Assembly: GCA_003142535.1 (NCBI GenBank)
Contig: PLMQ01000069.1
Span: 2,781 to 38,521 of the forward strand
DNA from: Syntrophaceae bacterium
GTDB lineage: Bacteria; Desulfobacterota; Syntrophia; Syntrophales; Smithellaceae
DNA: 35,741 bases
Direction: 5' to 3'
How positions within the stretch are numbered: position 1 is the first letter of the stretch; each line of letters starts with the position of its first letter. Shown here piece after piece: positions 1-35,741 of the stretch. Below the pieces are notes generated by a model. That model was not told where the DNA came from, did not search any database, and worked only from the letters and a program-made list of their open reading frames with translations. The translations under genes were made by a program, and so were the position numbers.

Positions 1-190
1 AACCTAAAGGTCACAAGCTGAAATTGGCAAGGCGAATTAATGAAACTCAGATATTACAAGCGCAGTGCAGTAATATCTGCAAATTGAATTAATCCCGCGT
101 GCGAAGCTTAGCGGGGTAATATAAATATCCCGCAAAGCGGAGGATACGAACCCCACAGCTTGCTTTGGGGTTCGTATCCGTGATTACCTT
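1..190 (-). repeat. Dispersed long-hairpin repeat, copy 1 (cut by window edge)
   Basis: Read on the minus strand this matches the repeat at 33491-33624: a hairpin with a 13-bp perfect stem (142-154 with 167-179), a small CCGC/GCGG hairpin (129-140), and a 17-bp block (1-17) identical in reverse complement to 33569-33585 and 30656-30672. Compared with the 33.5-kb copy it carries about 95 extra bases between the hairpin and the 17-bp block, including another GC-rich stem (CCCGC 93-97 with GCGGG 111-115). It lies just downstream of pbpC. The large hairpin could stop or protect the transcript, but no T-tract follows it. Confidence 0.75.
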
Positions 191-203
191 ATTTTGTAAC
201 ATT

Positions 204-2339
204 TCACTGCTCTGGTGTTCCGCGGACTTCAAATTGTACTGCATCTAATGTTTCGCCTTGCTGATTGCGGAGGGAAAGAAAATATTTTCCTGTCTGCGGA
301 ATCCATCCCACCGCCTTACCCTTTTCTTCAATGGCCTTTTCATTGAGCACCCAGCGCAGGTCTTCTTCCTGACCACGATAGATAAAAAACACTTTTTGCC
401 GCTCTCCGGGTATATCGGGATCAAGTGCTATTATTGTTCCGGCTAAAGGATAAAGAATTTGCCGCTGATAATTTTCCGTAAGCCGGATATCTGAGCTGGG
501 CTCCGTGCCTTTGATAAACCACTCGTCTGCCCGAATATTCGTTCCCGAAAAATTATTAATTTCCTTTTTTACCAGGCCTGCCGGTATCTGCGGGGCGGAC
601 AGGGTTTGACCACCGTGCAGGTAGTTCATTATCTCCACCCATACCGGCGCTGCCCCGGTGATACCACTGACATTCCACATCGGCTCGCCTGTATAATTTC
701 CCACCCAGACTCCCACCGTGTACTTTCCGGAATAACCGATGCACCAGTTATCGCGCATATCCTTGCTGGTTCCCGTCTTTACCGCCGCCCGGAAGCGTGT
801 CGCGAGCGGATTTTCCAGACCAAAAGTAATGCTGCGGGCTGCCCTGTCGGATAAAATATCCGCGATGATATATGCGCTCTCGGCCGAAAAGATTTTCCGC
901 CGCGGCTGCTGATTTTTTGCATCAACAACTAGGCGCGCCTCACCTGCTTCGCCTAGATTGGCGAGCGTCCTATAAGCGTTGGTCAATTCCCAGAGGCTGA
1001 CATCGGCGGAACCAAGAGCCAGAGCCGGTCCGTAATAATCACCGGCTTCACTGAGATTTTTTATCCCGAGCTTCCGCAATACGCTGACGAATTGCTCCGT
1101 GCCCACCATCATGAGCGTGCTTACTGCCGGTACATTGAGAGATGATGCCAGTGCCGCTCTTGCCGTAACCATACCCTGAAATTCTGAATCGTAATTCTTC
1201 GGCTGATAAATACCGGTATTCACCGAAATATCCAGTGGCGAATCATCCAGAATGGAAGCGGCAGTTAAGAGATGTTGATCAAAAGCCAGCGCATAAAGAA
1301 AAGGTTTGAGCGTGGAACCGGCCTGTCTTTTTGCCCGAACACCGTCCACATACATCGACAATTTCGGCTCACCGCCGATGCTTCCATAGGCCAGCACATC
1401 ACCGCTTTTATTTTCCAGCACCAGAAAAGCGCCATCATTGACATTGAGCTTGTACAAAACAGTTAGCTGCTGATGCAATTGCTCGTGCGCATATTTTTGC
1501 AGGCGGCCATCCAGCGTGCTTTTCACCTGGGCGCTGCCGGACAAATTCCGCAAAAGCTGCCGCGCCACATGCGGGGCAAATCCTGAATTTATTGAGGCTT
1601 CATAATGCACGGATTGGAGTTGTTTGATTTTAGCCTGAGCTTCCGCACCAGCGTCAAGCCAATTTAAAGACTGTCCAAGCCTGCTCACGCGCGAGGCAAC
1701 TTCATCGGCCGCGGCATTAGGCGCTCTGATTAACGCCGCGAGAACAAGAGCCTCCGCTTGGTTCAGGCCGTGCGGGTATTTGCCGAAGAGACAACGGGAT
1801 GCCGCCGCAATTCCCTGATACTCGCCCCGGAATGTTACCAGATTCAAATATGCTTCGAATATTTCGTTTTTTGTCCAACTCTTTTCTATATCCCGCGCCG
1901 CCAGAATTTGTTTACCTTTTTGCCATACCGATTTCCGGCCACGCACCGGTATCAGTTCCTTATCCAGAAAAACGGCTAACTGCATCGTGATGGTGCTGGC
2001 CCCGCGCCTGCCCTCGCCGGACATGCCGCCAAACACAGCCACACCCAGCGACTGGTAATCAACGCCGGAATGCCCGTAGAAGCGCTTGTCTTCGGCGGCA
2101 ATTATCGCCTCCTTCAAGGAAGGCGAAATTGCGTTGAGTTCCGTCCATTCCAGCCGCCGCCGCTGCTTATCGGTCCGCAATTCCTGCAGGATATTGCCAT
2201 TTCTGTCGAGCAGGAACGAATCGGACTGGACATAAGATTTGCGCAGGTTATCGTACGCGGATAAAGCCTGCACATCCGCGCTCATAAGCAGCAGCATAGA
2301 TACTGCCAGAATCAATTGTTTAATTACTCCGGTTACCAC
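204..2339 (-). CDS. pbpC: Penicillin-binding protein 1C (bifunctional transglycosylase/transpeptidase)
   Basis: The 711-residue protein polymerises lipid II and is predicted to cross-link peptidoglycan on the periplasmic face of the inner membrane. It starts with a hydrophobic signal/anchor (residues 5-25). The glycosyltransferase domain follows, with the catalytic Glu in AAEDKRFYGH (about E83) and RGASTITMQ (112-120). The transpeptidase domain has all three active-site motifs: GSTLKPF (Ser342), SLN (400-402) and KTG (521-523). A C-terminal domain of the kind seen in PBP1C (about 620-705) completes it. The start codon is GTG at 2337-2339; no in-frame ATG lies close upstream, and a G-rich stretch precedes it. 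It begins 16 bases after the alpha-2-macroglobulin stop, so the two are co-transcribed, the usual arrangement of this pair in Gram-negatives. The overall length is slightly below that of enterobacterial PBP1C. Confidence 0.95.
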   Translation of the reverse strand: MVTGVIKQLILAVSMLLLMSADVQALSAYDNLRKSYVQSDSFLLDRNGNILQELRTDKQRRRLEWTELNAISPSLKEAIIAAEDKRFYGHSGVDYQSLGVAVFGGMSGEGRRGASTITMQLAVFLDKELIPVRGRKSVWQKGKQILAARDIEKSWTKNEIFEAYLNLVTFRGEYQGIAAASRCLFGKYPHGLNQAEALVLAALIRAPNAAADEVASRVSRLGQSLNWLDAGAEAQAKIKQLQSVHYEASINSGFAPHVARQLLRNLSGSAQVKSTLDGRLQKYAHEQLHQQLTVLYKLNVNDGAFLVLENKSGDVLAYGSIGGEPKLSMYVDGVRAKRQAGSTLKPFLYALAFDQHLLTAASILDDSPLDISVNTGIYQPKNYDSEFQGMVTARAALASSLNVPAVSTLMMVGTEQFVSVLRKLGIKNLSEAGDYYGPALALGSADVSLWELTNAYRTLANLGEAGEARLVVDAKNQQPRRKIFSAESAYIIADILSDRAARSITFGLENPLATRFRAAVKTGTSKDMRDNWCIGYSGKYTVGVWVGNYTGEPMWNVSGITGAAPVWVEIMNYLHGGQTLSAPQIPAGLVKKEINNFSGTNIRADEWFIKGTEPSSDIRLTENYQRQILYPLAGTIIALDPDIPGERQKVFFIYRGQEEDLRWVLNEKAIEEKGKAVGWIPQTGKYFLSLRNQQGETLDAVQFEVRGTPEQ

Positions 2340-2355
2340 CGGCCACCCCCATCGC

Positions 2356-5300
2356 CTACGGATTTACTTCCATTGCCTTATTCGGCAACTCTCCGAACAT
2401 TTCCGGAAAATAAAGCGCTTCGACACGCGTTGTCGGCAAATTCAATTTGCCGCTCTGGTTAAGGCGTATTGTATATTCCGTCATCCATTCGCCTTTGGGA
2501 ACATATTCATAGTAAGCCTTGAACGCATCGAAGGTCCGCTCTTCAAATGCCGGCCAGATCCAACCTTTTTTCTTTTCACCCGCGGTCAGCATCTGTGATT
2601 CCCGCGCTAATCCCTTGCCCAGAATCGTTGCGCCGGCAGGAACAGGATCATTAACCACAACCCAGGTCTGATCGGCCTGCGCCTGCATCTCCAGACGAAT
2701 ACGCAGTACATCGCCTTTACTCCAGCGCCTCGCCTGCTTTTGCTCGACAGGAATAATTGTTTTTTTGATTTTGTATCCGCTGGAAAATGCTTCTTTCAGG
2801 GGAATCGCGGCCAGACTCTGCACAATGAGCCAGGGCTTTCCCGTTCCCTTATGCGTTACATTGAGATTATCGCTGCCCTGCGGCCAGGGGAAAAATTGTG
2901 ACTGTCCTTTGCTGTTGGCTTTCCAGTCCCAATTTTTTGTTTTACCGGCGAGTGTTGCCTGAGACATACCGGTCACCGGTGTTGCTTCAAAAGATTGAGA
3001 AAACTTTTCCATGGCCAGCGTACCCCACGCGTTGGCGGTGGTCAGATCCCAGGCACCATGCTTTTGCCTTGCCAGCGCGCCCTGCACCAGCCTGGGCATA
3101 TCCGCTTTCCATTGTTCCTCGTTCATCAGCGCCAGCAAAACACGGACGGCATTGACGTCATTGGAAACCATCAGCCACCACAGATAATCAGTTCCCTGCG
3201 TGGAAAAGCCCATTGTTGTTCCCTGAAAATTAAGACGGGAACGGATAATCTGCTGCGCTTCCTGCAAACGCTCCTGCCTTCCGGAGATATCATCCATATT
3301 GCGCAGGATGTTTATCCAGTCAATCACCGCCGAGGTCGGCCAGAGATTGGGCTCAATGGTAATGGAATTGAGCATTGCGGCCTGAGCTTTCCTTTCCCGC
3401 GCTAGCGCCTCTATCGCGGAAATTTTTCTCAGATGCAAATCAGTGGTGACAAGTGGCGAAGAGCAGGTGGATATACCCTCAATAAATCTTTTCAATCCCT
3501 CTTCCATTTTTGTCTTACTTGCCTCCGGAATACTCCAGCCCGCCTCATTGGCTATGGCATAAACGTAAGAAGTCAAAGTGGCGCTGCCGCAGACGCAATC
3601 TGGAAAATATTTCACCAGCCCATATTGATCAAAATACCCGGGCAGCGTACTCATTGTTTCCTTCCAGCGGTCCTTGTCCCGTAAGGCCACGGCGACGGAA
3701 ACCTTTTGTTCCATGCACGTGTATGGATAGCTACGCATATAATCGAGAACGCCATTCAATCCGGCGGATATTTTTGGTTTTAAAGTCGCCCTGATGCCGC
3801 CCCTTCCGGGTAGTGCATCGGCAGGCCTTTCCACCGCTAAATCATACCGGTCAGTCAATTGAGTTATGGTTGCCTGAAAAGTGCTGACCGGTATAACCGG
3901 AATAACTTTCTGGGTAATCTTGAGCCTGTCGGAATTAGCACTCCCCTGTTCGCGTACTTCCAGAAGCCATTTCAGAGCCGTAACATCAGCGGGAATTGTT
4001 ATATTCCAGCCTGTTTCTTTTGCTTCTCCGGGCGTAAGCGTAACTGTCAAATTGGCAAGCTGTTCTTTCAAACCTTCCACTTTTGCCGCCAGAACCACAT
4101 TCATCTTGCGATCAGTGGTGTTGCGTACCGTAAAGCCCGCCCAGGTTTTATCGCCTTCTCTGACCAGCGGCGGCAAGCCCGATAAGACCATTAAATCCTG
4201 TGTTGACCTAATCGAGGCCGAACCGGTTCCAAAGAATCCGGCATCTCCTGTGGCCACAGCAATAATCTTAAAGCTTGTCAGCGAATCATTTAGTGGAACT
4301 TCCAGCGCTGCCTCACCATTGGCATTAAGAAAAACCCGGCCTTTCCAGAGCAGCAGAGTATCAAAAAGTTCCCGAGTGGGCTGCTTTCCTCCCCCTCCGC
4401 CCTGCGCCAGAGCTTTCAAACCAAAATGACGCTTGCCGACAACCTGCATCTGCATGGAAGCCGTTTGCACTCCATAACCGCGCCGCCCCATCATCGCCGC
4501 CAGCAGCTCCCAGCTGCGATTCGGCATCAGTTCCAGTAGGCCTTCGTCAACTACGGCCACGGCCACTTCACTACCCACTGGCGGAGCTTTGTCTTCCGCA
4601 GTAACAACTTTGATGTTAATTTTCGCTTTCTGTCTTACCTGATACACTTTCCGATCTGTGGATATGTTGAGTTTCAGTTCATGGCTTTTCCAACCGACAT
4701 TAATTTCTGCAATACCCAACTTGTATGCCGGTTTCCCCAGATCAACCATGCTGGTTGGTTTTACTCCCGCCACGCGCCCGCGCACAACCAAAGCAGAGAC
4801 AAAAACATTGGGAGCATAATTATCTTTCACCGGCACTTCAATAACCGGCGACTTGCCGGATACCTTTTTTACCCAGCTTTCAATAATGCCTTCCCTTTCT
4901 ACTGAAATGAGCACAGTCGCTTCTCTAAAGGGCATACGCACCTGAAATTTCGCTTTTTCTCCCGGCTCATAGCGTTTCTTTTCGGCAATCAGGTCTATCC
5001 GGTCATTGTCGTTAACTTCAAACCACCAGTCGTCCTTGTCTGCCACCCAGATGTCCCTGTTGGCCGTAATTTTTCTTTTCTCCTCGTCATAAGTCTGCGC
5101 CTGCAGAATTACGTTTCCCGCCACTGGCGATTTGGCCTGACAGATCAACAGGCCTTGCTCATCTGTTTTACCATCACATACGCTGCCTATCTTTTTCACT
5201 TCCAGCGTATTTTCATAAGCATAAAAACCGCCGACCAGACGTTTGCGGTGCGAATAATTTTTTCTCTCCAGCAAATCAACCCTGACCGGCGCAGACATAA

Positions 5301-8061
5301 CCGGTTTGCCGGATAAATCCAGCACGGCAACCTGAAATTTGAAATCATCTTTGGCCGCCGCCCAGGAATCCGGTTTTATGCCGATGTTGTATTGTGAATT
5401 CCAGATGGGAACGCGGGCTGCCACCGTTTGAATTTCCCCATTGGGGTCATGAAATTCCATTTCCGTGAGGATTTCCCGGGGAATATCCGCTTTGGTTATA
5501 TTCCCGATACTCGTCCTAAATGTCCCTGCCGCATCCAACACCAAATCTTTCGTTGCTAATTTTTTCGTTTTGCGATCTTGATTATTTTCATCCATCTCCT
5601 CATTATAATCTTCATCAATGTTCTCACCACGCCGCACCAACCCTTCTTTAACGGCACCATTACTGAAAACAAAGTCATCGTAACCCGCAAAGGGAGAAAC
5701 ATTCTTGGAGCTAATTTCACTGCGCAGTTTAATCGGTAAGCTGCCGGCTCCGCCGCCCGCTAAATACTGAACAGCGAGATCCACTGTAACTTCCCGGACA
5801 TTAATCAATGCCTGCTTTGGTGTTTGAATAATTCCTTTCAAAAGAGGAACTCGGTATTCCTCCACGTTGAAATTACCGGAAATATAATTACCGGCACCGC
5901 CATAGTAATAACGCCGGGATTTTTTTTCTGTAGTTTTCTCCCGCAGGCTTACTTCGTATTTGCCCGTTTTGGCCTCCGCGGGAATTTTCCATTCTGTTTC
6001 CGCAATTCCGCCAACGTCCCATTTCAGGGGCATTTCGTATTTTTCATTGCTGCCCTGGTGTTCAATAACTATGACCTGCGGCAATTGTGCCTGGGGGACA
6101 AAAGAAAAACCCTTCGTTGTGTGCCGGCGGAAAACATGCTTCATGTGCACGGTTTCGCCCTTCCGCAGCAGGGTGCGGTCGAAAATCGTGTGCGCGATCA
6201 TCGGTGTATTGGAATCTTCTTCCGGCAACTGAAATCGCCATGATTCTATTCCTTCACTCCAGCTGGAATGGACAAAAGTAAAGTCATTATCAGTTTGCGC
6301 TGTAACAAAAAGTCCACCCTGCAATCCCTGCATGTGACGGCTTTCTCCGTATTGATAATGGCTTCTTTCATCATATTTAAATTCACAGCGGGGAAGATCA
6401 TTATCCTTGGGCAGAGCTTTTTCGATGCGGGCTAGACCTGCAGCATCTGTCCTTCCCTGCCAGACGATTTTATCCCGGCAATCCCGAATGGTCACATCCG
6501 CATCCCATACCGGTTTGGCTTCATCCAACGTCGTTACCCAGACAATTGATGATTCGCGCCCCCATTTGAAATGAGCGGCCATATTGGTCACTAAAACCGC
6601 CGTAGGCACATACATGGGCATTGGCGATTGCAGCAGGTGGCTGCCCAGTATACTGCTTTCCAGCTCCACGACATATAATCCTGTTTTTTCCAGCGGGATG
6701 CCGACAACTTCAAACGCCCGGGCGCCGTTAGGTTTGGGCATTTGAAATGTTTTTGCTTTGCCTGAACTTCCGAATATGGATTTTCCCCTGGGCGATATGG
6801 CAACCCTCCGCAGCCATTCCTGCAGATCTTTGCCGTGATCAGCCTTTACATTCATAATTTTCCCGACTACTTTTCCTACTACGCCTTCATCACTATCTAT
6901 TTTCTGCGATTTTATTTTCAACTGCGGTTCAATATTCCGCAGCGTTACCGGTAGCAGTAGAGGCTCCTCTTTCGATTCCAGAACGCCGAAACGTCCGGAA
7001 AATTTGGCAAGCGGCGGGTATTTATCGGTGCGCACGGACAGAGGAAATTTATCGGCATTAACCAGCGTTCTGCCTGCATCATCTTTTACACCCGCGGGCA
7101 GCTCCAGAAGAAAATTAGTGCTTTCGGGAAACGGCCCCTTAAAGTTTACATATGTGGTGTCATCTTCATTCTTTAGCGGCTCCGGTTTCCAGATTTTATT
7201 GCCCGGTCCTTTGAGGATGATTTTTGTCGCCTGAGACTTGGAAACAGATGAGTTAAAATCAAGCCGCAGCGGAAACATCGGAATGCAGCCGGCCTGCTTA
7301 TTTTCCCTTTCGCAATGAAATTCGGCCAAAAAAGGTTTACGCACCTGATAATTTACCGTCTGATCCTGAACTGTTGCTACACCGGTTAACGATTTCACGC
7401 CTTTTGCCCACACCAGAGACACTTTCGCTTCACTGGGAAAGCGCCGCTGACACTGAATTAATATTACCGGTACTGTCCGAATTTTTCGAAATCTGGATTT
7501 CAGTATTTTATCTCTGAGCTTGCCTTCGATTATTTTTATGCCGACCCGTTCATGAACCCCTTCAATCGAAAAAAATACATTGCTGTAAACGGAATCTAAA
7601 TCCGGTTCGCCATCAAGCGTCAAAACAAAAACCTGCTCTTCATCTATAGTGGTTGAACCTTCATAAGGCATCTTCCTGATGATGGAAGGCCCACCCGTGG
7701 AAAAGGAAAAAACCTTCTGGCCGGTAATCTCTTTCCCGGATAGTGCTTTCAACCCGGCTTTTAATTTGAATTCACATTTAGCTCCGGCGGAGATGTCTTG
7801 GGCGAAATCATAAACCCAGTTTTTATCATCCGCCCAGCGGCTGCTGCCCTTTTCGGTACAATTTATATCAAACGGATCTTTCTCACTGCGCGGATCGCCG
7901 AAAGGGATCATCTGCTCCGAAAAACGTACGCTCACCTGCCGTACATTTTTAATTATGCCCTGCGGGCTGAACATTTCAACTTTCGCCTCTTGGGCAGCCA
8001 AAGCAGTTACAGCGAGGAAAAAAGACAAAATAAAAATAACCAGTGATAATTTTAGTTTCAT
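2356..8061 (-). CDS. Bacterial alpha-2-macroglobulin, thioester type
   Basis: This 1901-residue secreted protein belongs to the large MG-domain family that traps proteases through a bait region and a reactive thioester. It has a Sec signal peptide (hydrophobic residues 4-22, cleavage near ALA-AQ). No lipobox cysteine follows, so it is not an obvious lipoprotein, unlike E. coli YfhM. The thioester motif CMEQ is intact (Cys1449-Gln1452; bases 3706-3717), so trapping by covalent capture should be possible. Numerous beta-rich MG domains precede it, and the A2M domain lies in roughly residues 1200-1320. It is longer than the ~1650-residue enterobacterial form. pbpC follows directly, which matches the known coupling: PBP1C repairs the wall where the macroglobulin guards a breached envelope. 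The start is the ATG preceded by a GGAG-like site (AAGGAGAAAAAA). Confidence 0.95.
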   Translation of the reverse strand: MKLKLSLVIFILSFFLAVTALAAQEAKVEMFSPQGIIKNVRQVSVRFSEQMIPFGDPRSEKDPFDINCTEKGSSRWADDKNWVYDFAQDISAGAKCEFKLKAGLKALSGKEITGQKVFSFSTGGPSIIRKMPYEGSTTIDEEQVFVLTLDGEPDLDSVYSNVFFSIEGVHERVGIKIIEGKLRDKILKSRFRKIRTVPVILIQCQRRFPSEAKVSLVWAKGVKSLTGVATVQDQTVNYQVRKPFLAEFHCERENKQAGCIPMFPLRLDFNSSVSKSQATKIILKGPGNKIWKPEPLKNEDDTTYVNFKGPFPESTNFLLELPAGVKDDAGRTLVNADKFPLSVRTDKYPPLAKFSGRFGVLESKEEPLLLPVTLRNIEPQLKIKSQKIDSDEGVVGKVVGKIMNVKADHGKDLQEWLRRVAISPRGKSIFGSSGKAKTFQMPKPNGARAFEVVGIPLEKTGLYVVELESSILGSHLLQSPMPMYVPTAVLVTNMAAHFKWGRESSIVWVTTLDEAKPVWDADVTIRDCRDKIVWQGRTDAAGLARIEKALPKDNDLPRCEFKYDERSHYQYGESRHMQGLQGGLFVTAQTDNDFTFVHSSWSEGIESWRFQLPEEDSNTPMIAHTIFDRTLLRKGETVHMKHVFRRHTTKGFSFVPQAQLPQVIVIEHQGSNEKYEMPLKWDVGGIAETEWKIPAEAKTGKYEVSLREKTTEKKSRRYYYGGAGNYISGNFNVEEYRVPLLKGIIQTPKQALINVREVTVDLAVQYLAGGGAGSLPIKLRSEISSKNVSPFAGYDDFVFSNGAVKEGLVRRGENIDEDYNEEMDENNQDRKTKKLATKDLVLDAAGTFRTSIGNITKADIPREILTEMEFHDPNGEIQTVAARVPIWNSQYNIGIKPDSWAAAKDDFKFQVAVLDLSGKPVMSAPVRVDLLERKNYSHRKRLVGGFYAYENTLEVKKIGSVCDGKTDEQGLLICQAKSPVAGNVILQAQTYDEEKRKITANRDIWVADKDDWWFEVNDNDRIDLIAEKKRYEPGEKAKFQVRMPFREATVLISVEREGIIESWVKKVSGKSPVIEVPVKDNYAPNVFVSALVVRGRVAGVKPTSMVDLGKPAYKLGIAEINVGWKSHELKLNISTDRKVYQVRQKAKINIKVVTAEDKAPPVGSEVAVAVVDEGLLELMPNRSWELLAAMMGRRGYGVQTASMQMQVVGKRHFGLKALAQGGGGGKQPTRELFDTLLLWKGRVFLNANGEAALEVPLNDSLTSFKIIAVATGDAGFFGTGSASIRSTQDLMVLSGLPPLVREGDKTWAGFTVRNTTDRKMNVVLAAKVEGLKEQLANLTVTLTPGEAKETGWNITIPADVTALKWLLEVREQGSANSDRLKITQKVIPVIPVSTFQATITQLTDRYDLAVERPADALPGRGGIRATLKPKISAGLNGVLDYMRSYPYTCMEQKVSVAVALRDKDRWKETMSTLPGYFDQYGLVKYFPDCVCGSATLTSYVYAIANEAGWSIPEASKTKMEEGLKRFIEGISTCSSPLVTTDLHLRKISAIEALARERKAQAAMLNSITIEPNLWPTSAVIDWINILRNMDDISGRQERLQEAQQIIRSRLNFQGTTMGFSTQGTDYLWWLMVSNDVNAVRVLLALMNEEQWKADMPRLVQGALARQKHGAWDLTTANAWGTLAMEKFSQSFEATPVTGMSQATLAGKTKNWDWKANSKGQSQFFPWPQGSDNLNVTHKGTGKPWLIVQSLAAIPLKEAFSSGYKIKKTIIPVEQKQARRWSKGDVLRIRLEMQAQADQTWVVVNDPVPAGATILGKGLARESQMLTAGEKKKGWIWPAFEERTFDAFKAYYEYVPKGEWMTEYTIRLNQSGKLNLPTTRVEALYFPEMFGELPNKAMEVNP

Positions 8062-8150
8062 TTTTTTCTCCTTCTAAAAATAATGACTTTCATGAATTGC
8101 CTACCTGTGGTCATAATTGAGCTTTGCAGAACATATAAACTAGCAATTAT

Positions 8151-8221
8151 GTCATTCCGGCGAAAGCCGGAATCCAGTATTATCTAGTGCTTCCTGGATT
8201 CCTGGTCAAGCCCGGAATGAC
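8151..8221. repeat. REP/MITE-like palindromic element
   Basis: The outer arms GTCATTCCGG (8151-8160) and CCGGAATGAC (8212-8221) are perfect inverted repeats. Inside are two nested hairpins: ATTCCGGC/GCCGGAAT (8154-8161 with 8166-8173) and GGAATCCAG/CTGGATTCC (8169-8177 with 8194-8202). The first 27 bases recur exactly, in reverse complement, at 30704-30730. Confidence 0.8.
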
Positions 8222-8327
8222 GTATAGAGGAGTTTTGCAGAGGCCTCCATAAATCTACGGGTGCTCTAAAGATGGCAATATAATGCCTAATACCGATAAA
8301 AAATTCCATCAAATAATTAAGGAGAAA

Positions 8328-8397
8328 TCACGGGCATGAACAATCCTTTGACAAATTTTAATTCGCTGCATTCTTATAATTGGAGTTTTACGAATAA
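8328..8397 (+). repeat. Dispersed repeat, degenerate copy 2
   Basis: It begins with the same ATCACGGGCATGAAC block as 33490-33504 and ends with AATTGGAGTTTTACGAATAAA, which matches the end of the 33.5-kb copy (GAATTGGAGTTTCACTAATAAA) with few changes. The middle hairpin arms are lost, so this looks like a decayed or internally deleted copy. Confidence 0.55.
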
Positions 8398-20506: not shown

Positions 20507-21121
20507 ATGATCTCCATTAACAGCCAGAATCCGCAAATGCGTCTTATCAAAAAGGCAGTGGATGTATTGCGTGATGGAGGAATTATAATTTATCCTACCG
20601 ACACGGTTTACGGCCTGGGTTGCGATTTATCCAATAAAAAAGGAATTGAAAAAATTTACGAAATAAAAAGAAGAAACAAGAAAGAGCCACTGAGTTTTGT
20701 CTGTTCGGACTTGAAACACATCAGCCAGTACGCCATGGTTACAGATTACGCCTACAAGACAATGAAGCGTCTCCTGCCCGGTCCCTATACATTCATTCTC
20801 GAAGCATCCCGTTTAGTGCCGAAGATAATTCTGCCGAAAAGACCAACCACAGGAATAAGAGTGCCGGATAATAACATTTGCCTGGCTTTAATCAGGGAAC
20901 TGGAGCAGCCCATTATCAGCACCAGCGTAAAAACACCGGATGGTGAACATTTGGGAAATCCCTATCATATTGCAGAATGTTTTGGTAAGATTGTGGATAT
21001 GATAATTGACGGTGGTATTATTAATCCCGAACCGTCAAGTGTCATCAGTCTTGTTGATGATGATATTGAAATTTTAAGAATTGGCAAAGGCGATGTTAGC
21101 GCCTTTCTATCACGGGGATGA
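20507..21121 (+). CDS. tsaC: Threonylcarbamoyl-AMP synthase (TsaC/Sua5/YrdC family)
   Basis: The 204-residue protein has the YrdC fold: GGIIIYPTDTVYGLGCDLSN near residues 24-43, KRRNKKEPLSFVC (ATP/threonine-binding lysine and arginine region), LPGPYTFILEAS, and GIRVPDN followed by ISTSVKTPDG. It makes threonylcarbamoyl-AMP for the t6A37 modification of ANN-reading tRNAs. It corresponds to the single-domain TsaC form, without the Sua5 C-terminal extension. CAGGAG ten bases upstream sets the start. Its last three codons and stop lie within a dispersed repeat element (21111-21246), so the C-terminus SRG comes from repeat DNA. Confidence 0.92.
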   Translation: MISINSQNPQMRLIKKAVDVLRDGGIIIYPTDTVYGLGCDLSNKKGIEKIYEIKRRNKKEPLSFVCSDLKHISQYAMVTDYAYKTMKRLLPGPYTFILEASRLVPKIILPKRPTTGIRVPDNNICLALIRELEQPIISTSVKTPDGEHLGNPYHIAECFGKIVDMIIDGGIINPEPSSVISLVDDDIEILRIGKGDVSAFLSRG

Positions 21122-21246
21122 ACCCTTAAAGAGAACTTTGTTGTTCATCCCCTCAGCTTAGCTGGATAGTTCGACTAACCAATTTCAATGCGCTTCGTCC
21201 TGCATTCGCTGGGCTTCGCTTTTGAATTTGGGGTCTCACTAATAAA
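21111..21246 (+). repeat. Dispersed long-hairpin repeat, copy 3
   Basis: It begins CACGGGGATGAACCC like the other copies. GGGGATGAAC (21114-21123) and GTTCATCCCC (21143-21152) form a perfect 10-bp stem, and the element ends GAATTTGGGGTCTCACTAATA, matching the end of the 33.5-kb copy. The arms differ from the other copies (GGGGATGAAC against GGGCATGAAC) but pairing is maintained. It overlaps the stop codon of tsaC and separates it from rng. Confidence 0.7.
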
Positions 21247-30647: not shown

Positions 30648-30730
30648 ACACCGGTCTTGTGACCTTTAGGTTACGAAGGCCGGTGTCCAGACATTATAAA
30701 TTACTGGATTCCGGCTTTCGCCGGAATGAC
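30648..30730 (+). repeat. Repeat fragments downstream of serS
   Basis: A hairpin ACACCGG...CCGGTGT (about 30648-30687) contains the 17-bp block shared with repeat copies 1 and 4 (30656-30672). It is followed by 27 bases (30704-30730) that are the exact reverse complement of 8151-8177, with the strong ATTCCGGC/GCCGGAAT palindrome. Together they may end the serS transcript, though no T-tract is evident. Confidence 0.7.
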
Positions 30731-30803
30731 ATCTGATAATATAACAAGCTAAAGCAGACTTTTTTACGAAATCATCATATATTAATATTACGAACTAGTA
30801 ACC

Positions 30804-33450: not shown

Positions 33451-33490
33451 AGGCGATAATGTGCTATATGCCTGCCTCACAATTTTTCAA

Positions 33491-33624
33491 TCACGGGCAT
33501 GAACCCCAAAGCAAGCTTTGGGGTTCATGCCCTCCGCTGCGCGGGATTGTTTAACTTGCCAATTCCGACTTGTGACCTTTAGGTTATATGCTTCGCTTGC
33601 GGAATTGGAGTTTCACTAATAAAT
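33491..33624 (+). repeat. Dispersed long-hairpin repeat, copy 4 (most complete)
   Basis: GGGCATGAACCCCAAAGC (33495-33512) and GCTTTGGGGTTCATGCCC (33515-33532) form an 18-bp perfect stem with almost no loop. A CCGC-TGC-GCGG hairpin, the 17-bp block CTTGTGACCTTTAGGTT (33569-33585) and the end motif GAATTGGAGTTTCACTAATA follow. It ends three bases before tRNA-Arg. Confidence 0.8.
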
Positions 33625-33627
33625 CGT

Positions 33628-33704
33628 GCGCCCATGGCTCAGCTGGATAGAGCGCCAGACTACGAATCTGGATGTCGCAAGTTCGAATCTTGCTGGGCGC
33701 ACCA
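33628..33704 (+). tRNA. tRNA-Arg(ACG)
   Basis: Full cloverleaf with acceptor GCGCCCA/TGGGCGC, anticodon stem CCAGA/TCTGG with loop CTACGAA (anticodon ACG at 33662-33664), GTTCGAATC T-loop and encoded CCA. Reads CGU, CGC and, through inosine, CGA. Its 3' end is next to a tyrosine-recombinase remnant, so it probably served as an integration site. Confidence 0.97.
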
Positions 33705-34818: not shown

Positions 34819-35741
34819 ATGGGTAAAAGTACAAGATTGGCTTTGTTTCTTATTTGCATGTTTTCTATTATTTTATCTTCCTGCGGCTCAACTGATAGTT
34901 CACCATCTGCATTTGGAAGGGGCAATTTGTGGACATGGAAAAGCGGTTCTAATACCGTCGATCAGACCGGCACCTATGGTTCAATTGGCGTTACCGACAT
35001 CAACAACGTGCCTGGTGCCAGACTTAACGCAATATCATGGATTGATGTAAGCAACAATATGTGGCTCTTCGGGGGGTATGGCTATGATTCAACTGGTTTA
35101 GGCCATCTCAACGATCTCTGGAAATTTGACAGCACCAACTGGACATGGATAAGCGGTTCTAATATCGTCAGTCAGCACGGCATCTACAGCACACCAGGCA
35201 GCAACGTACCGGGTGCTCGTGAGTTACCAGTTTCGTGGATCGACAACAGCGGCAATCTGTGGCTCTTCGGGGGATATGGCCTTGATTCAACTAACACATT
35301 AGGTTATCTTAACGATCTCTGGAAATTCGATGTCATTGCCTTGACATGGACCTGGGTGAGCGGTTCTAATACCGTCAATCAGACCGGCAACTACGGCACA
35401 AAGGGCGTTCCTGCCGCCAGCAACGTGCCGGGTGCTAGATATGGCGCAGTATCGTGGAGAGACAGCAATGGTAATCTGTGGTTCTTCGGGGGGGCGGGCT
35501 ATGATTCAACTGGCACATTCGGCGATCTCAATGATCTCTGGAAATTCGATGGTACCAACTGGACCTGGGTAAGCGGTTCTAATGTCGTCAATCAGCATGG
35601 CACCTACAGCACACCAGGCAGCAACGTGCCGGGCGCACGCGATAGCGCAGTCTCGTGGATTGACGGCAGTGGCCATCTGTGGCTCTTCGGAGGGTATGGC
35701 ATTGATTCAGTGGGCACAGCCGGCGATCTCAATGATCTCTG
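34819..35741 (+). CDS. Kelch-repeat lipoprotein (3' end beyond window)
   Basis: The frame is open from the ATG at 34819 (GGAGG six bases upstream) to the window end, more than 307 codons. It has a lipoprotein signal peptide with lipobox LSSC (Cys about residue 27), then tandem kelch-type repeats of about 66-74 residues. Each has the pattern W-T-W-x-S-G-S-N, N-V-P-G-A-R, W-I-D, L-W-L-F-G-G-x-G and L-N-D-L-W-K-F-D; four repeats are visible, the last incomplete. Repeats at the DNA level are highly similar and spaced roughly 198-222 bases. Kelch repeats form beta-propellers, often for protein or sugar binding; here a surface or periplasmic binding role is likely but unproven. A run of Gs encodes FGG in each repeat. 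Confidence 0.9.
   Translation, partial: MGKSTRLALFLICMFSIILSSCGSTDSSPSAFGRGNLWTWKSGSNTVDQTGTYGSIGVTDINNVPGARLNAISWIDVSNNMWLFGGYGYDSTGLGHLNDLWKFDSTNWTWISGSNIVSQHGIYSTPGSNVPGARELPVSWIDNSGNLWLFGGYGLDSTNTLGYLNDLWKFDVIALTWTWVSGSNTVNQTGNYGTKGVPAASNVPGARYGAVSWRDSNGNLWFFGGAGYDSTGTFGDLNDLWKFDGTNWTWVSGSNVVNQHGTYSTPGSNVPGARDSAVSWIDGSGHLWLFGGYGIDSVGTAGDLNDL

Follow-up and report, generated by a model that had tools for sequence, protein, structure and literature searches.

What kind of DNA repeats itself as long hairpins with constant ends and changing arms, and how does it spread? A 35,741-nt stretch of a Syntrophaceae bacterium contig (the whole stretch analysed, hereafter the window) raises this question, as it holds several such hairpins in different states of preservation. 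The features that we assigned are as follows.

33489..33617, plus strand: full element copy, noted earlier, with left end AATCAC and right end AGTTTCAC plus a variable base
33495-33511 / 33516-33532, plus strand: stem arms of the first hairpin of that copy
33559-33567 / 33600-33608, plus strand: arms of the T hairpin of that copy
33569..33586, plus strand: mini-hairpin of 18 nt, CTTGTGACCTTTAGGTTA, located where the 5' arm of the T hairpin meets its loop
33618..33622, plus strand: AATAA target motif abutting the right end, already genomic in the empty sites of other copies
33628..33704, plus strand: tRNA-Arg(ACG), directly 3' of the 33489..33617 copy
30656..30673, plus strand: the 18-nt mini-hairpin again, here lacking the large element and lying in the loop of an unrelated hairpin (arms ACACCGG/CCGGTGT)
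21108..21240, plus strand: element copy, with AATAA at 21241-21245
21119-21121, plus strand: stop codon of a TsaC/Sua5-family gene (20507-21121), supplied by the 21108..21240 element
8326..8392, plus strand: relic copy, ends kept and both hairpins lost, with AATAA at 8393-8397
1..185, minus strand: element copy whose left end is at 185 and whose 18-nt unit lies at the start of the window

The preliminary description had reported shared ends at these places, and both were recovered: the right end TTGGAGTTTCACTAATAA (up to 3 mismatches) has three matches in the window where 0.06 would be expected by chance, and the left end AATCACGGGCATGAAC has four where 0.38 would be expected. A 17-bp block reported at 30656-30672 proved to be an exact match. 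Two sets of coordinates needed revision. The copy placed at 33491-33624 is a real element, but its true span is 33489-33617, followed by AATAA at 33618-33622. The copy placed at 1-190 is present, but it lies antisense and runs on beyond the window, its right end being upstream with the sequence continuing across an NN gap; it also carries an extra hairpin with a AGATATTAC arm. The 33489..33617 copy has a perfect 17-bp first stem, a small CCGC/GCGG hairpin between the first hairpin and the T hairpin, and a fold better than all 200 shuffles (z = −6.6). The 21108..21240 copy folds at z = −4.6. The claim that the arms remain paired fails for the relic at 8326-8392, which has lost both hairpins (z = +0.65).

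Further copies, for which a genome-wide count had been proposed, are abundant. In the 2.93-Mb draft genome of origin (70 contigs), TTGGAGTTTCACTAATAA with up to 3 mismatches occurs at 230 places, versus 6 for the reversed control. Among 149 genomes, comprising this one and its relatives, high right-end counts (e.g., 124, 112, 70 and 59) were confined to one family (f1, 51 genomes), while counts in other families of Syntrophales were near the control level. Consistently, a pattern scan of named genomes returned at least 77 stretches, nearly all in records of Syntrophaceae, Smithella or Deltaproteobacteria; among the matches listed, single records were titled Geobacteraceae and Chloroflexi. The host most probably belongs to the Syntrophales family that includes Smithella. 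IMG/VR contigs did not contain the T-hairpin pattern, and plasmids gave no match to an element query, which argues against carriage by viruses or plasmids. We found no description of these repeats in the literature covered, which largely comprised papers outside subscription, nor by word search in PMC12306157 and the accessible part of PMC3733652.

To define the anatomy, we used 381 kb of DNA around copies in the genome of origin, in which both ends could be paired in 82 elements (18 of them containing NN in this draft). The elements span from AATCACGGG to GGAGTTTCACD, directly 5' of AATAA, and measure about 70 to about 340 nt. The conserved left end begins (A)ATCACGGG; the right end consists of GGAGTTTCAC and a variable base, which is A, G or T and hardly ever C, and AATAA follows. 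Both ends are fixed, are not inverted repeats of each other, and have a hairpin nearby. Between them the inner modules are stacked: the first hairpin, which is long, together with small CCGC/GCGG hairpins and at least one T hairpin. The T hairpin has the constant frame CRACYTRC ... GAGTYTCAYDA, into which different arm pairs can be exchanged, including AATTCC/GGAATT, AATTTC/GAAATT, AACTTCAG/CTGAAGTT and GATATTAC/GTAATATC. The elements have no coding capacity, and no gene-bearing long version was seen except for a weak candidate with a poor right end (L149).

The arms change in a coordinated manner across the genome. In 142 T-type hairpins, 7.13 of 11 positions form Watson-Crick pairs, compared with a shuffled mean of 5.29 and a maximum of 5.74 in 1000 trials in which arms were re-dealt at random. 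For the first hairpin, 65 copies from the genome of origin gave 9.29 pairs of 13 (maximum of 2000 shuffles, 8.97) and 44 copies from relatives gave 8.93 (shuffled maximum, 8.89). One-sided changes are nevertheless far commoner than double changes in the first hairpin, and some T hairpins are hybrids that join the left arm of one type to the right arm of another. Pairing of the arms is favoured but not strictly kept. The idea of divergence with maintained pairing is accordingly upheld by covariation beyond all shuffles, and is limited by the frequent one-sided changes and unpaired hybrid arms. The covariation may stem from selection for foldable ends, from self-templated repair of imperfect palindromes, or from both. 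That pairing is kept without any selection, through self-templated quasi-palindrome correction during replication, is a serious if tentative proposition, and one compatible with transposition. Perfect but unusual arms such as GGACATAATACCG/CGGTATTATGTCC, found alongside many imperfect copies, are consistent with it, whereas the spread of the elements and their fixed ends are left unexplained.

The 82 paired-end elements have no matching flanks, i.e., no target-site duplication. When the flanks of 128 elements with both ends were joined and compared among the fetched loci, the span filter retained 9 alignments to another locus; both sides of the junction were visible in 7 of these. In a closer comparison, four genomes were searched with the flanks of 12 MAG fen_1165 elements; 7 elements could be judged on both sides and 5 matched on one side only. 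Four of the 7 judgeable sites were empty in every genome in which both flanks were found, those in G149 with 90–93% identity over the junction, and the other 3 were filled in at least one genome. The two comparisons together yielded about ten distinct empty sites, three of which rest on 68–77% identity. Insertion was clean, with no duplication beyond an ambiguous AA. Since AATAA already exists in several empty sites (e.g., CCGGTAC^AATAAAG and GATAATC^AATAATA), it is the target, or nearly so, and does not belong to the element. Other empty sites carry a merely similar motif (AAAAAG, GATGAA or CATAAG), exact AATAA being found in some cases alone. These sites show that insertion takes place directly on the 5' side of AATAA, or of an A-rich motif like it, which on the other strand is the 3' side of TTATT.

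The presence of elements differs between related species. Three orthologous filled sites have the same ends and different inner modules in different species, and one genome keeps AGTCACG alone at an orthologous site, matching the deletion expected between the TCAC(G) repeats of the two ends. The repeats form a mobile, non-autonomous element family confined to a single family of Syntrophales, whose records are labelled Syntrophaceae or Smithella. Empty sites in relatives, the absence of coding capacity and hundreds of copies bear out the earlier suggestion of a mobile element moved in trans. Taken as a whole, the preliminary observation is partly confirmed and its interpretation partly supported.

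Which enzyme moves them? Transposition of IS200/IS605 elements is not known to produce a target duplication. By analogy, the insertion mode of our elements resembles this single-strand transposition, and they share with IS200/IS605 (Y1 HUH) derivatives the lack of duplication, the fixed short flank at one end (AATAA abuts the right end only) and the subterminal hairpins. Hairpin and tetranucleotide features of IS200/IS605 are described in PMC6006769. The elements are probably moved in trans by a single-stranded-DNA-acting, HUH-type enzyme like that of IS200/IS605, which would recognise the hairpins at the ends, as well as the short target, on the lagging-strand template. They differ from IS200/IS605 derivatives in their many stacked, nested hairpins and exchanging inner modules, and no autonomous partner with these ends was found; because no Y1 partner of this kind turned up, we withhold membership.

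We searched for transposases of the Y1, Y2 and IS110 families. The genome of origin has three Y1 genes, one above the NCBIfam RAYT cut-off (84.4 versus 80 bits) and two below; one of the three has an element copy nearby, the RAYT gene lying 30 nt from a copy. Across the 51 family genomes, Y1 counts did not correlate with element counts (Spearman rho 0.10, P 0.49). A 98% complete genome with 38 ends (G015) gave no match for Y1, Y2 or IS110. None of 32 Y1 loci inspected was framed by the element's ends, and in one (L031) a complete element copy merely sits beside the Y1 gene. The uncorrelated counts, the absence of a framed Y1 locus and the genome without Y1 count against the IS200/IS605-like model, as do the inexact targets in some empty sites and the common one-sided arm changes.

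Part of this evidence suits a different enzyme class that makes no target duplication, namely a Y2 (IS91/Helitron-like) enzyme, an IS110-type recombinase or a factor outside the known families. We regard this as the less probable reading, although one to be taken into account. The absent duplication and fixed flank are equally compatible with it, and IS110-family elements target palindromic repeats according to PMC1525189, but the genome of origin has no Y2 gene and two IS110 genes, and neither family was matched in G015 despite its 38 ends.

Mobilisation as REP/BIME elements by host RAYT (TnpA-REP) genes is unlikely. Our elements are like REP/BIME/REPIN sequences in being high-copy, intergenic, palindromic, mosaic and presumably non-autonomous, and compensatory changes in REPIN hairpins are reported in PMC3116915. 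The three Y1 genes, with a RAYT over the cut-off so close to a copy, and an internal module with GTAG before a palindrome also speak for this origin. Our elements differ from REP sequences in their fixed AATAA flank, in their composite length of about 70–340 nt, in having no link to RAYT counts and in lacking a GT[AG]G foot on the main hairpins. GTAG/GTGG is absent from the main hairpins, the T-hairpin feet reading ...AGTTTCAC / GTGAAACT, and GTAG was found in the accessory module alone, which lies beside a T hairpin in 14 of 15 places and is no free repeat. The elements are not GTAG-tagged REPs. The proposed search for a RAYT-like transposase thus turned up a gene next to one copy, yet the rho of 0.10 and the missing foot leave it without a general tie to the elements; the same rho, G015 without Y1 and the 32 unframed Y1 loci argue against mobilisation by RAYT. 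As a separate observation, the accessory module GCGTAGTCCGCC..GGCGGATT, seen in the fetched pieces of the genome of origin, is shaped like a GTAG-tagged REP, though it sits beside the T hairpin in all but one of its places.

Other known systems were also compared. The ends AATCACGGG and TTTCACD are not inverted copies and no target is duplicated, so a classical MITE of the DDE type was rejected. Integron attC sites have the core sites RYYYAAC and GTTRRRY; here GTTCAAC stands on the 5' side, yet the 3' side reads GTTTCAC, and an attC site was rejected as well. Double-hairpin elements of organelle genomes are mobile hairpins with changing stems, as our elements are; these belong to different genomes.

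We then examined genomic position with a crude gene model and 102 right ends. Most lie between genes (31 −−, 24 ++, 17 −+ and 11 +−), 15 fall inside an open frame and 4 are partial, at piece ends. Given this mixed orientation to neighbouring genes, an orientation-bound regulatory element was rejected. Adjacency to tRNAs, also suggested for checking, is not general: a tRNA lies within 150 nt of 3 of 82 elements, and the 33489 copy before tRNA-Arg sets no rule. A conserved RNA or DNA structure (terminator, mRNA stabiliser or attenuator) held in place by selection is very improbable, for strong folding, covariation, intergenic position and copies in leaders such as that of tRNA-Arg are outweighed by the mixed orientation, the insertion polymorphism between species, the swapping of modules at the same site and the lack of any match to an Rfam family, the last of which also sets aside a known RNA family.

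Element orientation was compared with GC skew as well. The skew was positive on the element strand in 45 of 112 cases (sign test P 0.047, Wilcoxon P 0.011). This direction weakly fits a TTATT-side strand serving as lagging-strand template; the ends being non-independent, we give it little weight. Separately, local element sets with skewed orientation occur on contigs C35, C5, C32 and C55 of G000 (C35, 5 plus and 0 minus).

Of 79 elements, 13 lie at the stop of the upstream gene: an open frame of 100 codons or more enters the left end and stops at nt 12–14. The typical reading is AA TCA CGG GTA TGA, with the new stop three codons downstream. Once the flanks are joined, 12 of the 13 read a stop at the same position, NAA TAA in most cases. 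As background, the same DNA has 975 AATAA sites that lie outside long open frames, and 48 of them are gene stops of this kind, so that the share in elements is about threefold higher. A stop (TGA or TAA) is present at nt 12–14 in 72 of 82 elements. Filled and empty readings of one such site could be compared directly in loci of the relatives (L168 and L202). The many insertions on gene TAA stops would be a side effect of the AATAA target, and the TGA or TAA at nt 12–14 would restore termination after three codons. Landing on stop codons with a built-in replacement stop would give a parasite a simple, harmless route into gene ends.

The smallest repeated part is the 18-nt mini-hairpin CTTGTGACCTTTAGGTTA, found in 132 copies in the genome (up to 1 mismatch) versus 0 in the control. 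The fetched DNA of the genome of origin contains 69 distinct copies, of which 18 are tandem, 11 were dropped owing to nearby N and 40 were scored. Under a criterion (loops of 16 nt or less) that was set once the sites had been seen, 29 of the 40 occupy the 5' arm/loop edge of a stem with 6 bp or more, compared with 4.8% of random positions, and for 20 of 40 that stem has 9 bp or more, compared with 0.23%; the narrower test that it replaced (loops up to 10 nt) gave 5 of 50 sites. Among the hosts are T hairpins of two types, the loop of the unit itself, palindromes of CCGG type (window 30656, L234 and L253) and a CCCGGCA/TGCGCCGGG hairpin. Variant arms of the unit are still paired (TGACC/GGTTA with one G-T, CCACC/GGTGG and TGCCC/GGGTA).

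Among the matches listed, an orthologous element occurs with and without the 18-mer (L018 and L106). The gap before tRNA-Ser is ~45–55 nt in several relatives (G022, G041 and G012), versus ~220 nt in the genome of origin, where it contains the 18-mer and its host hairpin. Of the family's genomes, 36 of 45 carry the 18-mer (42 of 51 in another count), versus 1 of 104 genomes of other families, and some genomes, among them G024 and G036, have it above control with the large element's end near control. In the loci of relatives, T hairpins hold 6 of the 7 copies and one lies elsewhere, which adds no independent host. The 18-mers in T hairpins may have been inherited with the hairpin, in which case independent insertions number fewer than 40.

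We tentatively propose that the 18-nt hairpin could be a mobile unit entering the 5' arm/loop boundary of suitable hairpins, including its own, with composites growing by such nesting and the larger element landing on gene stops with its replacement stop. The unit would be moved by a similar single-strand event. If true, this would be a mobile DNA system with a smallest unit of 18 nt, whose target is a structure, the hairpin loop, beyond sequence alone. The origin of mosaic palindromic repeats would become directly testable, and the several hundred short hairpin DNAs spread through this methane-community bacterium's genome would have been rebuilt from smaller hairpins. Cyanobacterial small dispersed repeats (SDR) are very short, dispersed and apparently mobile units. 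They are similar in this respect, and differ in that the unit here occupies the arm/loop edges of hairpins and also lies inside copies of itself. IS1397 and IS621 likewise insert into palindromes, according to PMC1525189, and differ in being gene-bearing insertion sequences, against a unit of 18 nt here.

A second dispersed palindrome family, ATTCCGGCGAAAGCCGGAAT, lies at window positions 8149-8189 and 30692-30732; its arms are variable and its loop is able to host the 18-nt unit. Elsewhere in the window, diverged tandem repeats of about 200–220 nt occupy about 34930-35741 and run off the window end; we take them to resemble Kelch-type protein repeats. On the minus strand, 204-8061 holds a penicillin-binding protein 1C-like gene adjoining a bacterial alpha-2-macroglobulin gene (Pfam).
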